Positions 1 through 57,203 of a stretch of DNA of 64,000 nt are shown here, piece after piece. The notes under the pieces were generated by a model. The model saw only the letters and a list, made by a program, of their open reading frames with translations. It was not told where the DNA came from and did not search any database. Position 1 is the stretch's first letter, and every line of letters begins with the position of its first letter. The position numbers and the translations under genes are program-made. The stretch comes from Capsulimonadaceae bacterium (GTDB lineage: Bacteria; Armatimonadota; Armatimonadia; Armatimonadales; Capsulimonadaceae): positions 1 through 64,000 of the forward strand of contig JARLGU010000010.1 in the NCBI GenBank assembly GCA_031292625.1, given 5' to 3'.

Positions 1-228
1 CCAACCCAGGCCGGCCCTTTCAGGACCGGACACGGTTGATCGCATCCATTAATATCAACGATCGTCATCACTACTGGCGCGGTTTCCGGCCGTTAACGAC
101 CGGTCTGAGATGTCAATCCCCATCAATGGGGCTGCCGGATCGCGATAATGCTGGCCGTCTGACGATTAACCCTGTTCACAGGGTTTGCCCAACCCAGGCC
201 GGCCCTTTCAGGACCGGACACGGTTGAT
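1..228. repeat. Tandem copies of a ~188-bp hairpin-rich repeat (possible structured RNA)
   Basis: Bases 1-40 recur at 189-228, so the window opens on the tail of one unit followed by a full unit with a 188-bp period. The full unit holds four hairpins: 86-103 (CCGG arms), 118-131 (CCCCAT/ATGGGG), 168-185 (AACCCTG/CAGGGTT, loop TTCA) and 199-217 (CCGG arms around CC/GG). A diverged copy lies at about 39205-39365. No convincing coding frame crosses the unit. The function is unknown; the hairpin conservation suggests a structured RNA or DNA element, and the strand is undecided. Confidence 0.75.
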
Positions 229-1153: not shown

Positions 1154-3127
1154 ATGAGTATCTCGGTAATCAGCGCGACGGTTCTTCCAAATGGGAACGA
1201 GATCGATATTGTATTCTCGGAACCTTTTAGCGTGACGCCGCTTTTTAGGCCGTCAATCTCCGTTTGGAAAAATGGCATTCTTTGGTGCACGGTTGGCGTC
1301 TCGTGTTCGTATTTGGCGTCTGGCGCTACCCTCAAGCTCGTTGGTTTCCCAGGTGCGATCTTTGCGAGCGACGTGGTCACGCTCTCCGGCAGCATCTCGG
1401 ACTGGGAGATCGAGGCTGGAGGAGTTCTCTTCGACGCCGCTGCCGCAATTACGAACGAGTCCATGCGCGATACTGGGGTGGACGCGCTTGCGTTCACCGG
1501 CTTGTCTGTCGTTTCAGCCTTCATCGCCCCGAAGGATGTCGTGTCCGTGTTCGATCTTCTCGCGCTCCGGACGCCTACGGGGCTGCTGTATCAGGCGTCC
1601 GCGACGGGAGGTGCTTCGTATATTGCGTCTCCGCCAGCGCCCAGCGCATCCGGCTGGCTGCCGGCGAACCTGCTGATCGATCACCTGCCGGGGGACACGG
1701 TGAGCGGGTATGAGGCACCGGGTACGTCTCCTCTCCTGTGGGTGATGGCGTGCTTTCCGTCGCCGTCCACGGTGGCCGGGATCGAGATCGCGGGGGCGTT
1801 CGGTTCGACAGGCGTCACCGCGAACGCGTATGGGTCCAACGATGGGCAGACGTGGAGCGTGATCGGGTGGGTGAGCGGGGCCTCGAGCTACCGCGATTTG
1901 AGCCTGACGGGGAACCTACCTGAGACCTACCTTCCCGCCGGGGACGGCGGGCCCCTTCCTCCCGCAACGGGAGGAGCTCCGGAGTGGTTTCCGGTCAGTT
2001 CGTCCGCTTACCGGTATGTTGCGGTTTGCTTCCGCTCTGCGAGCCCCGGATCGTTCAGCGTCACGGATCTGCGGTTCAATGGGGCGAGCGCAGGGACCGG
2101 GGCGGATTTGACGCCGGGGCTGGTGCGGTTTACGGATGCGTCGCATCTCGCTGATTTAGGGCGCATAGGGCTGCTCAAGTCGATTAACGGCAACGTGATT
2201 TTGGTCGATGCTGGCGGCGCGCGTACAATTCCGTCGGGCCGCGTGCGCATCAGTCACATGGATCAGAACGTTGGGATGGATCCCGGTTACCAGGTCAGCC
2301 GCTTTGCGCTTGCGCAGAGCCAGCGGGACGTAGTCTCGCTGACGGACGCGGCTGGGGTTGAGAAATGGGTTTTTGGCATCGACGCGCTGAGCCTGTCCGA
2401 TCATGCCGGCCTGCGGGCGTCCCTGCTCTATCGCTCAGATGTCGCGACGCTTAGCGATATGGCGTCGGTCCTTCCGGGCGTTCGGGAACGGATGACGTTG
2501 GCGGATATGGCAGGCACGACATCCTCTCCGTCGGCGTGGGATTCCCTGGCGATCGTGGATTTGTCGCGAGCGGGAATCTTGCAGGCGTTTGCGGATGCGT
2601 TCACGGTAGCGGATACGGCGTCGCTAGCGCTTGCGTTGGCTGCGCCGATCGATGCGATCGAAACGGAAGACTCGACCCAGGTGTCCGGGCCGAGAACGGA
2701 CTCGGCCGCGGAGGCGCCGTCAATGGCGGATGCGGCGGCGGCGTCCGTTACGATTGCGGCCGCCGACACGGTCAGCGTGGCGGACGTCATTAACGTTTTG
2801 CGCTTGTTGCCGATCGCAGGGGATACGCTGGGCTTCGTTGACGCAGGCAGAGTCGCGCGGTTTGAGGTCGTGTTGGCGGAGGCGCTCCAGATGGCGGAGA
2901 CGACGTTGGATCCGTCGGGCTCGGGGACCTTTTACGAGCTATTGGCGGACGTCGGGCGGCTTGGCGACGCTGGGTGCGTGGGTGTTGCGGCGAGCCATGC
3001 GGACGGCGTCAGGTTCTCGGACGCGACGCGGGCGCCGGCTGTCCCGATCGGCCCCGACGATCTCGCGATAGCGGATGCGGTCAGCGTGCGCGTGACATCG
3101 GAGCAGTATTCGACGGTGTGGAGCTGA
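1154..3127 (+). CDS. Phage tail fibre / receptor-binding-like protein with discoidin-like domain and short repeats
   Basis: This 657-residue protein falls into three parts. Residues ~1-110 are beta-rich. Residues ~165-330 resemble an F5/8 type C (discoidin) carbohydrate-binding domain, with a YGSNDGQTW-type strand and an AYRYVAV strand. The C-terminal half (~390-650) is built from short degenerate repeats of the pattern D-x-L-S-L-x-D-x-A, typical of phage tail proteins. A REP-like palindrome (1917-1986) is inserted in frame inside the discoidin-like domain. The gene lies between another structural gene and small late genes, so a host-recognition fibre is the best guess. The exact family is not identified. 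Confidence 0.65.
   Translation: MSISVISATVLPNGNEIDIVFSEPFSVTPLFRPSISVWKNGILWCTVGVSCSYLASGATLKLVGFPGAIFASDVVTLSGSISDWEIEAGGVLFDAAAAITNESMRDTGVDALAFTGLSVVSAFIAPKDVVSVFDLLALRTPTGLLYQASATGGASYIASPPAPSASGWLPANLLIDHLPGDTVSGYEAPGTSPLLWVMACFPSPSTVAGIEIAGAFGSTGVTANAYGSNDGQTWSVIGWVSGASSYRDLSLTGNLPETYLPAGDGGPLPPATGGAPEWFPVSSSAYRYVAVCFRSASPGSFSVTDLRFNGASAGTGADLTPGLVRFTDASHLADLGRIGLLKSINGNVILVDAGGARTIPSGRVRISHMDQNVGMDPGYQVSRFALAQSQRDVVSLTDAAGVEKWVFGIDALSLSDHAGLRASLLYRSDVATLSDMASVLPGVRERMTLADMAGTTSSPSAWDSLAIVDLSRAGILQAFADAFTVADTASLALALAAPIDAIETEDSTQVSGPRTDSAAEAPSMADAAAASVTIAAADTVSVADVINVLRLLPIAGDTLGFVDAGRVARFEVVLAEALQMAETTLDPSGSGTFYELLADVGRLGDAGCVGVAASHADGVRFSDATRAPAVPIGPDDLAIADAVSVRVTSEQYSTVWS
1917..1986. 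repeat. REP-like palindromic repeat (R1) inserted in frame inside a coding region
   Basis: This copy carries the family marks: an ACCTACCTTCCC box, a CCCGCCGG...CGGCGGG hairpin, then GGCCCCTTCCTCCCG and CGGGAGGAGCTCCGGA. It keeps the reading frame of the 1154-3127 gene and adds about 23 Pro/Gly-rich residues (about residues 255-278). The flanking sequence reads as one continuous discoidin-like domain. Confidence 0.7.
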
Positions 3128-3532
3128 GGGACCTCATTCCCCCACGCCCCTCGACGGAGTTCGGGACCTTCGGCCGGGAGGAGGCAGGGGGAACTAACTG
3201 GGCTTTGCCTCGGCGCGCTTCGCGCGGAACCTACCTTCCCATTTCATTTGCCCCTCCCTCTCCTTCGACAGGCTCAGGACTCCGAGCGAGGCCGAGGAGC
3301 CGAAGCGGGAGGAGCTTAGGAGCGCTTGGCAATGCGGCCAACAGTCTCTCGGTTTCGGAGAGAAGGGGACCCCATTCCGATGGGGTAGAGAGGTCTCCGA
3401 ACGCGCGAACCACGCTCAAATTGAGCTATATTCTTCATAAGATCGTACTAAAGTCGTCACCCCCGCGCAATCGTGCGTTGGGGCTATTTTCGCGCCCGGC
3501 ACTTCGAGAATGGGCGGAAAGGCTGGAGGCAT
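3128..3532. repeat. Repeat-filled gap: R1 copy with a nested ~60-bp palindrome, then a hairpin leader
   Basis: The 405-bp gap has no supported gene. At about 3232 an ACCTACCTTCCC box starts an R1 unit. From 3256 to 3318 it contains a ~60-bp segment (TCCTTCGACAGGCTCAGGAC ... GAGCCGAA) that is nearly identical to 38909-38972. The unit closes with GGGAGGAGCTTAGG. At 3461-3486 lies a second copy of the CCCCGCGCAATC hairpin seen at 245, followed by CTATTTT, just upstream of the gene at 3533. Confidence 0.7.
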
Positions 3533-3823
3533 ATGAGTTGGTTTACGGTGATCCTCGGCGATATCGCGGAGGGAGCTTATACGTCGATCGGAGATGTCGA
3601 TACGAGCAGCGCGTCGAAGGCCGCGCCAACGTTGCTGAAGAAGCTGGCGCTGCTCAAGACGATCTCGCAGGATCTCGGGAGCGCAGCGGCGGTGGCGTTC
3701 GTCGCGCAACACGACGACCAGCTGGGGCCGTTCGCACAACAAATCGTCGACGCGGTGAACGGAAAGGCGATCGCGGAGGCGGTGAGCATCGTCGTCGGGC
3801 TGCTCGGCATTATCGGCAACTGA
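3533..3823 (+). CDS. Small phage-region protein, hydrophobic C-terminus
   Basis: This 96-residue protein is unrecognised. The ATG at 3533 follows a strong GGAGG at 3525-3529, so the in-frame ATG upstream at 3473 is rejected. The last ~20 residues form a hydrophobic segment rich in Val, Ile, Leu and Gly. The middle is Ala/Lys-rich and probably helical. It forms a pair with the 106-residue gene 37 bp downstream, between the fibre gene and the lysis genes. A small structural or lysis-accessory role is possible. Confidence 0.6.
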   Translation: MSWFTVILGDIAEGAYTSIGDVDTSSASKAAPTLLKKLALLKTISQDLGSAAAVAFVAQHDDQLGPFAQQIVDAVNGKAIAEAVSIVVGLLGIIGN

Positions 3824-5051: not shown

Positions 5052-5277
5052 TTGCTGCAACGGACGCATTTTCGATGGTAACGGGAGCGATCGTGAATGC
5101 GATGTCTGCAGCCATCTTTGGCGGCGGGACGAAATGGAATCTCTCGGGGCAGGTCCGCCCACTCGCCGCTCGCTTGCGGTACGTCTGGCCGCGCATTTTG
5201 ACCAGAGCGGCTTGCACGGTTGGGCCGCTCGCGTTCTTGAGCGGGCAGTGCCCGGATATAAGGAGATCACGCAATGA
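5008..5277 (+). CDS. Small Cys-rich (zinc-ribbon-like) protein
   Basis: This 89-residue protein has Cys residues in the spacing C-x4-CC ... C-x2-C within residues 11-34, suggesting a small zinc ribbon. The start at 5008 lies inside the preceding Cys-rich gene. The stop overlaps the ATG of the endolysin (5274-5277), so this gene and the amidase are coupled. No family is recognised. The two overlapping zinc-finger ORFs may act together. Confidence 0.5.
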   Translation: MPHPNRAHPRCLRPDCCNGRIFDGNGSDRECDVCSHLWRRDEMESLGAGPPTRRSLAVRLAAHFDQSGLHGWAARVLERAVPGYKEITQ

Positions 5278-5822
5278 ACATCATAGGAAAGCGCTTTTCG
5301 CCGGACGAGTTTTGGGGATATGCCGCTCAGACGATTGGTGAAGCGTCCTGGAAGGGGAGCTTCGTCGTGCTTCACAACACGGGCTCCCCGACGCTCGCTC
5401 AGCGCCCGTCCGGCCTGACGTCCGAACACATCACGAATCTTCGTCTCTACTACGAAGACCTTGGCTGGCACGCCGGTCCGCATCTGTTCATCGATCAGAA
5501 CGGCATCTGGGTCTTCTCTCCGCTGACCGCTCCCGGCGTCCATAGCCCGTCGTGGAACCACGTCAGCTACGGTGTCGAGCAGCTCGGAGATTTCGATCGC
5601 GAAGCGTACACGTCCGGTCCCGGCGCGCTCGTTCGCGCCAATGCGATCTCCGCCCTCGCTGCGCTCCACCATGCCGCCTGCATCGATTCCGCGACGCTCA
5701 AACTCCACCGCATGGATCCGAAGACGACACACCGCGATTGTCCCGGTGCGCACTGCGCCGACGAGTTCGAGCAGATCATGCGCGACGTCCACGCGGCGGT
5801 CGTGGCGCGGGAGCAGGTTTGA
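5274..5822 (+). CDS. N-acetylmuramoyl-L-alanine amidase, phage endolysin
   Basis: This 182-residue amidase_2/PGRP-type domain should cleave the bond between MurNAc and L-Ala in peptidoglycan. Putative zinc ligands are H34 in VVLHNTGS and the distal HRDCPGAH motif near residues 153-160. An aromatic GWHAGPH segment near residues 65-70 matches the fold. There is no signal peptide or cell-wall-binding domain, so export would depend on a holin, for which the small membrane proteins upstream are candidates. Start and previous stop overlap by 4 bases. It closes the phage late-gene run. Confidence 0.85.
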   Translation: MNIIGKRFSPDEFWGYAAQTIGEASWKGSFVVLHNTGSPTLAQRPSGLTSEHITNLRLYYEDLGWHAGPHLFIDQNGIWVFSPLTAPGVHSPSWNHVSYGVEQLGDFDREAYTSGPGALVRANAISALAALHHAACIDSATLKLHRMDPKTTHRDCPGAHCADEFEQIMRDVHAAVVAREQV

Positions 5823-17875: not shown

Positions 17876-18793
17876 CCGGAGGGCGAAGGTTGCGCCGTAT
17901 TGGACAGGATTGCTATTTGAATTGAGATTGCAGTCCGTGCTTGGCGCTAGAGAGTTAAATGTAGGCGGACACTGGGCGAAAGCTTTCGTGTTTCCTATGG
18001 TCGTATCATATCCCGCTCCGACCAGTGTTGGCTTGAACCACCTTGCATGGCCGTCCGCCAACAAGTAGTTTGCTCCACTTTGGTGTCGCCCGTCAGCCCC
18101 GATAAAGTAAGAGTTATTGCCTGTAATGTTGGTAACAATATTGTCGCTTTCGTTAGCCTGGGCATTGGCGAGCTGGCCGGTGGCATATTTGAGGGAGCTC
18201 GCCGTTTCAGTTGAAGCTGACCCGCTATTATTGCCATTCAGTGAGTATCCGCCTAGGCTTACAATTCCATTTCCGCATGGCGACTTTTGGACGTCCGCTG
18301 CCAGAGACGTCACGTTGATAGTCGAACTACCAATACAGTTGATGACTTCGAAAAGCATGACAGATCTTGCGGGGCTTGCCATCTCGGAAATGGCCACAGG
18401 AACAGGAATGCCATTGTTTGAGTTGTCCAGTACATAAGGCACCATGTTGGAGTTGATCGCATATGAGATAAAGTCTTGAGGATTTATATCGTCAGGACAT
18501 AGGAACACAGACGTGCTTTTGGCATATGGGAACACTTGTGCAGCCCATCCATTTCCGCCTCCCCAGTTGTTCGTTCCGCATGGGACAATTTCATCGTAAT
18601 CCTGCTCGTACTGCGTATAGGCTAGACCAAGCTGCTTCAAATTGGACAAGCAAGCTGCAGAGCGGGCTTTCTCTCTGGCTTGTGCGAAGATTGGAAATAA
18701 CACTGCTGCCAATATCGCTATTATGGCTATAGACACTAATAACTCTATAAGAGTAAATGCTCTCACTTGAGAACGATCAGTTACGACTATCAT
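17861..18793 (-). CDS. DUF1559-type prepilin-like protein (pseudopilin) of a hydrolase operon
   Basis: This 310-residue protein has a type IV prepilin N-terminus: a basic leader, AFTLIELL, then a hydrophobic helix and the [27 protein letters not shown] segment typical of this superfamily. Prepilin peptidase should cut before the Phe. The H-X9-DG motif is present ([14 protein letters not shown]). Its ATG lies one base after the regulator stop, and its GGAGG ribosome site lies within the last codons of the regulator, so translation is coupled. The hydrolase gene follows 30 bases later. A surface or secretion-apparatus role linked to that enzyme is inferred. Confidence 0.85.
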
Positions 18794-28596: not shown

Positions 28597-29445
28597 TTAA
28601 TAGTACGTATTGGCCGTACCTAGCAGGTTGTCGTCGGGATAGTAGTTGAGCCCATTCGATTGCGGCCCATATATGTAATTCGTATAGCCCCAGGATGAGC
28701 AAGGCAGATTCGTGTTGCTGGTGCTGCTGACCACGCCTTGTTGTCCGACCGTTGCCAGGAACCACTTGACATGTCCGTCGGCGAGCGCATAGTTGGCGCC
28801 GCCCGAGTGGCGAATTGCCGCGACCGCGGCGTCGCACGCGGGGTTCCCGGTAGAGACCGCTGTGCCGCTGAGTATGCGCGCGGTCTCCCAGTCGCTGGCG
28901 CTGGCCACGTTGGTGCCGTTGCCGGGGTTGAAAACCAAGCACCGGTCAGTCTGATTGATTATGCTGGTCACGCTGTTTGCTCCGGTGCTTGTTGTCGTAT
29001 TGCCGCCAAGTGCGTCTGCGAAAACAACCGTCGAGCCTGGGAACGGTATCGTGGAAATGACGCGCGGCGGAAACGTGGAGATGCCGGTGTCCATTGCCAC
29101 GTACGTGTTGTACGTGTAGTCCAGGACGCTGCCCGCAAGCCCCTGGCTCGGGCAGGTGAACACGGATTTGCTCTTGATGTAGGGGTAGATCGCGTAACAC
29201 CAGTTGAACAGAACCGGCGATGCGGAAGAAACACCCGATCGCGTCGGGACCGCCATCTCGTCGTAGTCCTGCGAATACTGCAGGTCGGCCAAAATGATCT
29301 GCTTCAAGTTGCTCGCACACGTCGATTGCCGCGCCTTCTCTCTGGCCGTCGCAAATACGGGAAATAGAATCGCAGCGAGAATCGCTATGATGGCTATAAC
29401 TACGAGAAGTTCGATTAATGTAAATCCTTGATGTTTTTCTTTCAT
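28597..29445 (-). CDS. DUF1559-type prepilin-like protein (pseudopilin) in the pectin cluster
   Basis: This 282-residue protein has [10 protein letters not shown] at the prepilin peptidase site, then the hydrophobic helix and [21 protein letters not shown]9-DG is [14 protein letters not shown]. Start ATG 29445 follows GGAGGCTG directly; the upstream extension is rejected. The body ([18 protein letters not shown]) is close to the pseudopilin at 56370-57203, so these two are recent paralogues. The gene follows the PL22 lyase by 31 bases and so is in the same unit. Confidence 0.85.
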
Positions 29446-38814: not shown

Positions 38815-38980
38815 TGGCGACGGGGGCCGAGCAATATGCCTTCGGAGGCTCACCCACTTCCCCTTCGAGAGCCTCATGGTCCCGAGCAATGCCTATGGGA
38901 GCGGCCCCCTTCCTCTCCTTCGACATGCTCAGGACTCCGAGCGAGGCCGAGGAGCCGAAACAGGAGGAGCTTCAGAAGAT
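38815..38980. repeat. REP-like repeat (R1) with the nested ~60-bp palindrome
   Basis: This R1 unit contains GGCCCCCTTCCTCTCC, then a segment (about 38909-38972) nearly identical to 3256-3318, and closes with CAGGAGGAGCTTCAG. The shared core starts TCCTTCGACA and includes GCTCAGGACTCCGAGCGAGG. It lies in the gap between divergent units, with no gene. Confidence 0.7.
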
Positions 38981-44863: not shown

Positions 44864-45805
44864 TTAGTGAATCGAGAACGTCGCCGCCGGTCCGCCGCCG
44901 CCGCAGGCTCCGGACTGCCCTGCCGCCGCCGCGGAATGCGCGACCCAGCTCGAGTCGCTGTAGTAGCCGGATGGGTAAGCGCCGCAGGTGTTCGAGATGT
45001 TGTCCAGCCCGGCGGATATGGCGGTGCACATCATGAACTTTGTATGCCCATCGGCAAGGGCGTAGTTTGCTCCGCCATTGTGACGTCCCGTCAAATGCGT
45101 GCCGAACAATTGGCTGCCGCGCTCAGCCATTGCTATTCCCGGCCAAACTCCTGTTGTGACGTTAGCGGTGCCGTTGGTGTTGAGTATGTCGGTGCCGTTG
45201 CTGGCCGGAGAACTGGCGTCGAAGCACCCCGTATAGCTGGTGTTTGTCGGATCGGCAGTGCAGCCGGTTACTTCGAACAGCAGCACCGTGTTGGTTGCGC
45301 TGCCGAGGGACGATGCCGGATAAGAGTGCGCGGCGGCTCCCGTACCGTTCATGCCAAAGTTTGCATTGTATGCGTATGACATCTCGGCCTGCTTGGCGCT
45401 CGGCACGCCAGACTCGCCGCATGTGTTGGTTGTCGCCGTGATACACGTTGAGGTTATCCACATGCATGCGCCGCCCGATCCGCTCGTCGCCGTCGACTGG
45501 AACGAGTCGCTCGGGCAAACGAATGCCCCCATCGATTTGACATAGGGGTAGATCTGCCCGGCCCATCCCATTCCATAATTGTAGGAGTCGCTTTGGTAAG
45601 GAATGCCCTTCGGATAGCACTCATCGTAGTCCTGGATATATTGAAGGGCGGCGAGCCCGAGCTGTTTCATGTTGCTGAGACACGCCGTTTGCCGCGCCTT
45701 CTCGCGGGCGGTTGCAAAGACGGGAAATAGAATTGCAGCAAGTATCGCAATGATCGCGATAACTACGAGAAGCTCAATCAAAGTGAACCCATTTCGGCTT
45801 TTCAT
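44864..45805 (-). CDS. DUF1559-type prepilin-like protein (pseudopilin) beside the GH13 gene
   Basis: This 313-residue protein has [10 protein letters not shown] with a basic leader, a hydrophobic helix and [22 protein letters not shown]9-DG is [14 protein letters not shown]. Several extra cysteines ([13 protein letters not shown]) may form disulfides. ATG 45805 has GAGG upstream. It lies just downstream of the GH13 gene on the same strand but has its own consensus promoter at 45863-45891. Confidence 0.85.
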
Positions 45806-56369: not shown

Positions 56370-57203
56370 CTATTCGTAGGCCGACGTCGTGCCGATCGTC
56401 GTATCGTCAGGGTTATAAATCAGCGTGTTCGAAGGCGGATACTGGTTCGTATATCCCCACGGGTTTGAGCACGCGTTCGCGGCCATTTGGAAGGTATATG
56501 GATTCGCCGATGTCGTGACGCTCGGATACCACTTGACGTGTCCGTCGGCCATTGCATAGTTGCACCCGCCGGAATGGCGGACGGCCGCGACGGCTCCGTC
56601 ACAGACATTGTTTCCGGTTCCGGCGCCGCCGGGCACATCCCGTGCGAGTTCGCTGCCGCCGAGGACCGAAGCGTTCGGATTCGGCATGGCGAATGTTAAA
56701 GCGGTACCGGTTGGGATGGACAATCCAGCGGTTGTCGTGTTGGCGCCTCCAAGGGCATCCGCGAACGCCACGGTGGATGCGGGATATTGCAGGGTGGTTA
56801 TCGGTCTCGGCGGAAGGGCGCCCGTGCCGTTATTGTATATCATCCCGAGCAACCAGTTGTACGTATAGTCGAGCGCGCTTCCGCCAATGCTCTGGCTAGG
56901 ACATGTAAATACCTGGTTGCTTTTGATGTAGGGGTAAACGCAGGCGCACCAGTTGAAGTTGCTCGGAGATCCGCTGGACGGGCCGACCCGAAGGGGAACC
57001 AGCATTTCGTCGTAGTCCTGGGAGTACTGTACGGCGGCGAGCCCAATCTGCTTCAGGTTGCTCGCACACGACGACTGCCGGGCCTTCTCGCGAGCGGTCG
57101 CGAAAACGGGAAACAGAATTGCCGCGAGAATCGCGATAATGGCGATAACAACTAGTAATTCGATAAGAGTGAATGCTCGCTTTTTGGAATGCGTCTGTTT
57201 CAT
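56370..57203 (-). CDS. DUF1559-type prepilin-like protein (pseudopilin) upstream of GH4-CE15
   Basis: This 277-residue protein has [10 protein letters not shown], the helix and [22 protein letters not shown]9-DG is [14 protein letters not shown]. The ATG has a strong AGGAGGAG site. It is very similar along its length to the pseudopilin at 28597-29445, including FNWC, PYIKS, FTCPSQS and the Asp-rich C-terminus. It is the first gene of the cluster with GH4 and CE15 and has its own near-consensus promoter. Confidence 0.85.

Follow-up and report, generated by a model that had tools for sequence, protein, structure and literature searches.

The Rickettsia palindromic elements (RPEs) are short palindromes that lie between genes and also in frame within unrelated genes, whose products tolerate the extra peptide (PMC10969869, PMC3733652). 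For several species, REPs inside genes, including copies in frame, are on record (PMC3733652), and intragenic MITEs give rise to in-frame fusions that have been described as not unusual (PMC10969869). Since coding palindromes and intragenic REPs exist in several species, the original prediction for the locus described here, which called protein-coding palindromic elements rare outside Rickettsia, was overstated and is to be softened. In cluster K mycobacteriophages, the SAS and ESAS elements share one orientation and lie in wide gaps near start codons, with a Shine-Dalgarno (SD) core and inverted repeats; the SAS is 13 bp long, nearly absent from the host chromosome and typically located 3-7 bp from the start (PMC3203893). 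Borg tandem repeats occur both between genes and in frame, where the same kind of repeat encodes disordered protein segments in a mobile genome (PMC9879509).

Here we describe R1, a family of dispersed palindromic repeats that occurs in frame in at least three unrelated proteins: a fibre-like protein, a primase and a ParB-like protein. Each unit is ~60 nt long and carries two hairpins. In the window, which is the whole 64,000-nt stretch of DNA analysed here, a near-consensus copy occupies positions 1921-1984 of the + strand (GAGACCTACCTTCCCGCCGGGGACGGCGGGCCCCTTCCTCCCGCAACGGGAGGAGCTCCGGAG, one extra base preceding, by direct reading). Its score against a covariance model built from an alignment of 23 copies is 75.2 bits (E = 2.9e-17 over the 5.77-Mb genome). 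The common core of these 23 copies consists of GGAGACCTACCTTCCC, a first hairpin of variable length, GGGCCCCTT and then the second hairpin, with the consensus TTCCTCCCG-aa-CGGGAGGAG. Across the genome the model finds 80 matches at E <= 0.01, the count of elements varying with the score threshold, and a strict R1 pattern has 30 exact matches against none for the reversed pattern used as a control; these numbers exclude a chance origin of the match. The palindromic repeat noted originally is thus a real repeat unit, but it is a double hairpin instead of a single palindrome, comprising two perfect stem-loops: hairpin 1 (1934-1951, +; 7 bp, 4-nt loop) and hairpin 2 (1956-1976, +; 9 bp, 3-nt loop), the 3' arm of which is the SD-like GGGAGGAG. 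Both hairpins are predicted by RNAalifold, and in each of them one pair varies on both sides yet stays paired (in hairpin 1, alignment column 18/29 is G-C, A-U or C-G). Rfam returned no match above the gathering score at the R1 copies.

The window copy lies within an open frame (1154-3127, +) for a putative tail or fibre-like prophage protein of 657 aa. Codon usage is coding-like on both sides of the repeat, and the frame is kept across it, as had been proposed. R1 encodes ETYLPAGDGGPLPPATGGAPE, residues 257-277, in agreement with the residues 255-278 (1916-1987) given earlier, and the stretch of the protein that spans the insert reads ...SLTGNLPETYLPAGD.... Directly 5' of the full unit, direct reading reveals a probable partial R1 start, GGGGAACCTACC (1909-1920, +), and half units like it precede many other copies. 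The protein has no PHROG match, and a homology search with its whole length among phages, viral contigs and 60 relatives matched only R1 itself. We infer a fibre from its place in the late region, upstream of the gene for an N-acetylmuramoyl-L-alanine amidase (endolysin) that ends this region (5274-5822, +; Pfam Amidase_2, E = 1.2e-7), and from a discoidin/CBM32-like domain (1619-2089, +; about residues 156-312) that R1 splits.

This tentative domain assignment draws on a Pfam match, a structural model and fold matches. The match to Pfam F5_F8_type_C is weak (E = 0.0017; 18.9 bits, under the curated cut-off of 28.2), and Foldseek comparison of the domain model returned CBM32 / F5/8 type C structures as the top PDB matches (probability 1.00, TM-score about 0.45). 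The AlphaFold2 model, calculated from 6 aligned sequences, has a pLDDT of 66 and a pTM of 0.66; a single-sequence model has a pLDDT of 36.5. In the 6-sequence model, residues 87-118, which take in most of the repeat peptide, form a loop between strands and are nearly all below 50 pLDDT, values that are low in part because the insert columns hold one row only.

When the domain alone was used to search the phylum, homologues emerged that the whole-protein search had missed. Five homologous domains were identified, two of them in neighbouring ORFs (G102:C25), two as repeats within a 971-aa frame (G102:C14) and one in G122:C18, and all of them are without the R1 segment. Measured from the conserved W (QTW, SND-x-x-x-W) up to the residue that precedes R-Y-V/W/L, the QTW-to-YRYV loop has 53 residues in the fibre-like protein versus 32, 37, 35, 29 and 33 in the homologues. 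The excess of 16-24 residues equals about one R1 unit, and removal of 21 codons reduces the 53 residues to 32. In line with the original description of one discoidin-like domain around the loop, phmmer matched residues 163-237 and then 281-308 to one homologue in order, the second piece being weak alone. Because five homologous domains are without the segment and the excess matches one unit, the segment is an insertion and not ordinary protein sequence. The comparison supports the in-frame insertion of an R1 copy into the discoidin-like domain, with ends that are approximate, since the homologous domains share only about 20-31% identity with that of the fibre-like protein.

Other coding insertions, for which a genome search had been suggested, are found in two further proteins of the same prophages, one a primase and the other ParB-like. 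In the ParB-like protein (L035:4267-6576), R1 occupies residues 652-671, preceded by an in-frame half unit, and lies between the conserved part and a C-terminal tail that homologues do not share. A second REP type, CCCTCACCCC-NN-CCCTCTCCC, also lies in frame near the N-terminus of this protein (L035:4315-4335, contig C48), where it encodes GPSPQPSPIGMGEG. In the NrS-1-like primase/helicase (L035:853-3660), a degenerate R1 lies in an interdomain linker at about residues 363-382; its homologues carry both flanking domains in one ORF, joined by a linker that is unrelated or shorter. Such homologues occur in related genomes of the phylum, and the protein can serve as a marker for this phage group. 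The ORF L034:18269-18781 begins with a possible fourth coding copy, the status of which is ambiguous because translation could truly begin at a downstream GTG. We discarded a candidate coding copy in a host ORF at C60:81478, whose frame is arginine-rich and non-coding-like, and the R1 copy at C17:251 was judged not clearly coding. Half units within genes are spaced by 39 and 33 nt, each a multiple of three, and those between genes have mixed spacings. All coding copies are in the sense orientation and use one common frame, E-T-Y/L-L-P ... P-P-x-T/Q-G-G; given a fixed orientation, three or four copies would share a frame with a chance of 1/9 to 1/27, which is no more than suggestive.

These coding copies bear on three other readings of the insert. 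Contig ends of this genome fall in repeats, so a misassembled repeat might be suspected, or a proline-rich linker that resembles R1 by chance; the significance of the fibre-like copy, the correct order of the two domain halves around it and the use of the same R1 frame in three separate genes make such an artefact extremely unlikely. The coding copies might instead be once-intergenic copies caught by read-through fusion of neighbouring genes, as the mostly intergenic location of R1 and its position just before the unshared tail of the ParB-like protein would allow. However, both flanks in the fibre-like protein form one domain, and the primase homologues hold both flanking domains in one ORF; at the insertion point, the fibre domain and the primase each have uninterrupted relatives, and none turned up for the ParB-like protein. 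We consider gene fusion very improbable. Finally, the exposed position of the loop in a CBM32-like, that is carbohydrate-binding, domain of a late phage protein could mean that it is under selection and affects how the protein binds a receptor or glycan, or how stable it is. Selection of this kind seems unlikely to us, as the same peptide occurs in the primase and the ParB-like protein, for which receptor binding has no relevance, and the R1 copy stays close to the DNA consensus and so gives no hint that it has adapted as protein.

R1 is concentrated in two prophages. Prophage A extends from about 85 kb to the end of contig C48, with primase, ParB-like, terminase, portal and SU10-like capsid genes, and C8:1-8.6 kb, beyond which a tRNA gene lies, probably belongs to it. 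Prophage B, with its own terminase and capsid genes, runs from about 22 kb of C17 down to position 1 and continues in the window from 1 to 5.9 kb. A 188-nt repeat with several hairpins is common to the two contig ends (window 1-228 and C17:1-235) and is the probable cause of the assembly break that divides prophage B in two. Related 96-aa proteins are encoded in the late regions of these two otherwise different prophages (window 3533-3823 and L036:5188-5478). The fibre-like gene is preceded by a 174-aa ORF of the same prophage (348-872, +; no family match), and the gap between them holds an intergenic R1 copy in the sense orientation (928-983, +). Another copy, 3' of the fibre-like gene (3225-3322, +), has the long second hairpin of the chromosomal composite type; both copies are matches to the covariance model. 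The composite chromosomal repeat, in which R1 hairpin 1 is joined to a TTCGACAGGCTCAGGA-type hairpin, occurs at window 3225-3400 and 38848-38977. Elsewhere in the window, direct repeats of about 191 nt lie at 18579-18769, 29246-29436, 45609-45799 and 56995-57185, with 60-77% identity to the reference copy.

About 29 R1 copies fall within some 43 kb of prophage, versus about 23 comparable copies in the remaining genome, so that their density in the prophages is roughly 167-fold above that of the host chromosome. Judged against the upstream gene, every one of the 28 orientable prophage copies is sense, compared with 10 of the 22 in the host (Fisher p = 5e-6), and relative to the downstream gene the counts are 25 of 26 and 11 of 23. 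Copies that share a tandem array are not independent, and the genes were called by a simple codon-score caller. Prophage arrays are exclusively direct tandem. Because the sense bias is complete in the prophages and orientation is random in the host, the alternative of selfish DNA or regulatory RNA is now testable.

The complete sense bias raises the possibility that R1 acts primarily as RNA, as a mobile sense-strand leader that supplies phage genes with an SD, GGGAGGAG, held in a hairpin; the coding copies would then be by-products, or would act on the mRNA through pausing, processing or coupling. This is consistent with the pairing of GGGAGGAG within hairpin 2, with about nine or ten prophage copies whose ends lie 3-20 nt ahead of a start codon, and with the likeness to SAS and ESAS (PMC3203893). 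On the other hand, many copies are separated from the next start by 50-300 nt or belong to tandem arrays, both-sided changes affect only 2 of the 13 consensus pairs, the folding energy of most copies is no better than that of shuffles, and the host copies are random in orientation. By direct reading, the fibre-like gene has no internal start codon in frame at a useful distance after its coding SD. We hold a primary RNA role to be possible but tentative; it is compatible with the explanation we prefer below. A bolder version, in which the two prophages adopted R1 as a mobile, sense-only RNA leader with its own SD that spread between their genes and controls translation, and spillover in one frame repeatedly adds the same disordered loop to phage proteins, is rather doubtful.

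R1 has relatives outside this genome. Other genomes of the same family contain weaker matches (best 42.6 bits), some of which (L083, L086, L088 and L089) form inverted pairs with 30-70 nt between the units. No repeat family of this kind occurs in related prophages that carry homologous primases. Because the relatives are found in the host family and related prophages are without such repeats, R1 looks like a REP-like element of the host lineage that these two prophages acquired and amplified. Viral contigs gave no match to the R1 pattern, to the primase or ParB-like protein, or to the domain alignment; two matches to the pattern in genome contigs were chance-like and unconfirmed by the R1 model. 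The only Y1_Tnp transposase gene of the genome (C45:3907-4251) lies more than 1.5 kb from any R1 copy (3.3 kb checked), the nearest being at C45:2090-2151.

Our preferred explanation, which we regard as likely, is that a REP-like R1 of the host lineage was amplified in the prophages and that its coding copies are tolerated as disordered linkers. The short double hairpin would have multiplied in the two prophages mainly in intergenic gaps, always along transcription, where it may be neutral or serve as an RNA leader. One copy would have entered in frame the exposed interstrand loop of the CBM32-like domain, enlarging it by about 21-25 Pro/Gly-rich, probably disordered residues without breaking the domain. 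The copies in the primase linker and the ParB-like C-terminal linker may have arisen by the same route, or by capture of a gap. The frame that R1 happens to use would yield a linker of Pro/Gly/acidic character, which could be accommodated in a surface loop or between domains, and we infer that the fibre-like protein is still functional, its loop simply tolerated. Counting against this explanation are the sense-only orientation, unexpected for a neutral DNA transposon, and the absence of R1 beside the sole Y1 transposase gene.

Among known systems, R1 comes closest in kind to the RPEs and the intragenic REPs. It resembles the RPEs in being both intergenic and in frame in unrelated genes, with homologous proteins that are without the segment. 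It differs from them in its length of about 60 nt, its two hairpins, its concentration in prophages and sense-only orientation there, and its few coding copies; it is RPE-like in kind, the comparison with RPE-1 to RPE-10 being one of description. With the REP/BIME families (GTAG, CGTC), R1 shares short hairpin repeats that occur as singles and inverted pairs in same-family genomes. Its invariant CCTACC contains CTAC (GTAG on the other strand) at one end, a possible counterpart of the terminal GTAG of the GTAG type. Unlike RAYT-mobilised REPs, no R1 copy accompanies the Y1 transposase gene, and unlike REPs and BIMEs in general, R1 is strongly prophage-enriched and oriented one way. The nearest match to its intergenic phage arrangement is SAS/ESAS, although R1 is also present in the host, often lies far from starts (only about nine or ten prophage copies are within 20 nt of one), has coding copies and is unlike GGGATAGGAGCCC in sequence. 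Borg repeats are the nearest match for the presence of one kind of repeat both in intergenic gaps and in the reading frames of a mobile genome, but they form perfect local tandem arrays of unrelated units, whereas R1 is a single dispersed family with conserved hairpins. R1 thereby extends coding palindromic elements to tailed-phage genes with empty-site homologues, and it offers a natural test of protein tolerance to a standard 20-residue insert in a CBM32-like domain, a primase linker and a ParB-like linker. Coding repeats were already known from Rickettsia and some other bacteria; the R1 family, its prophage concentration and its one-way orientation are new, and they join features of the RPEs and intragenic REPs, of SAS/ESAS and of Borg repeats.
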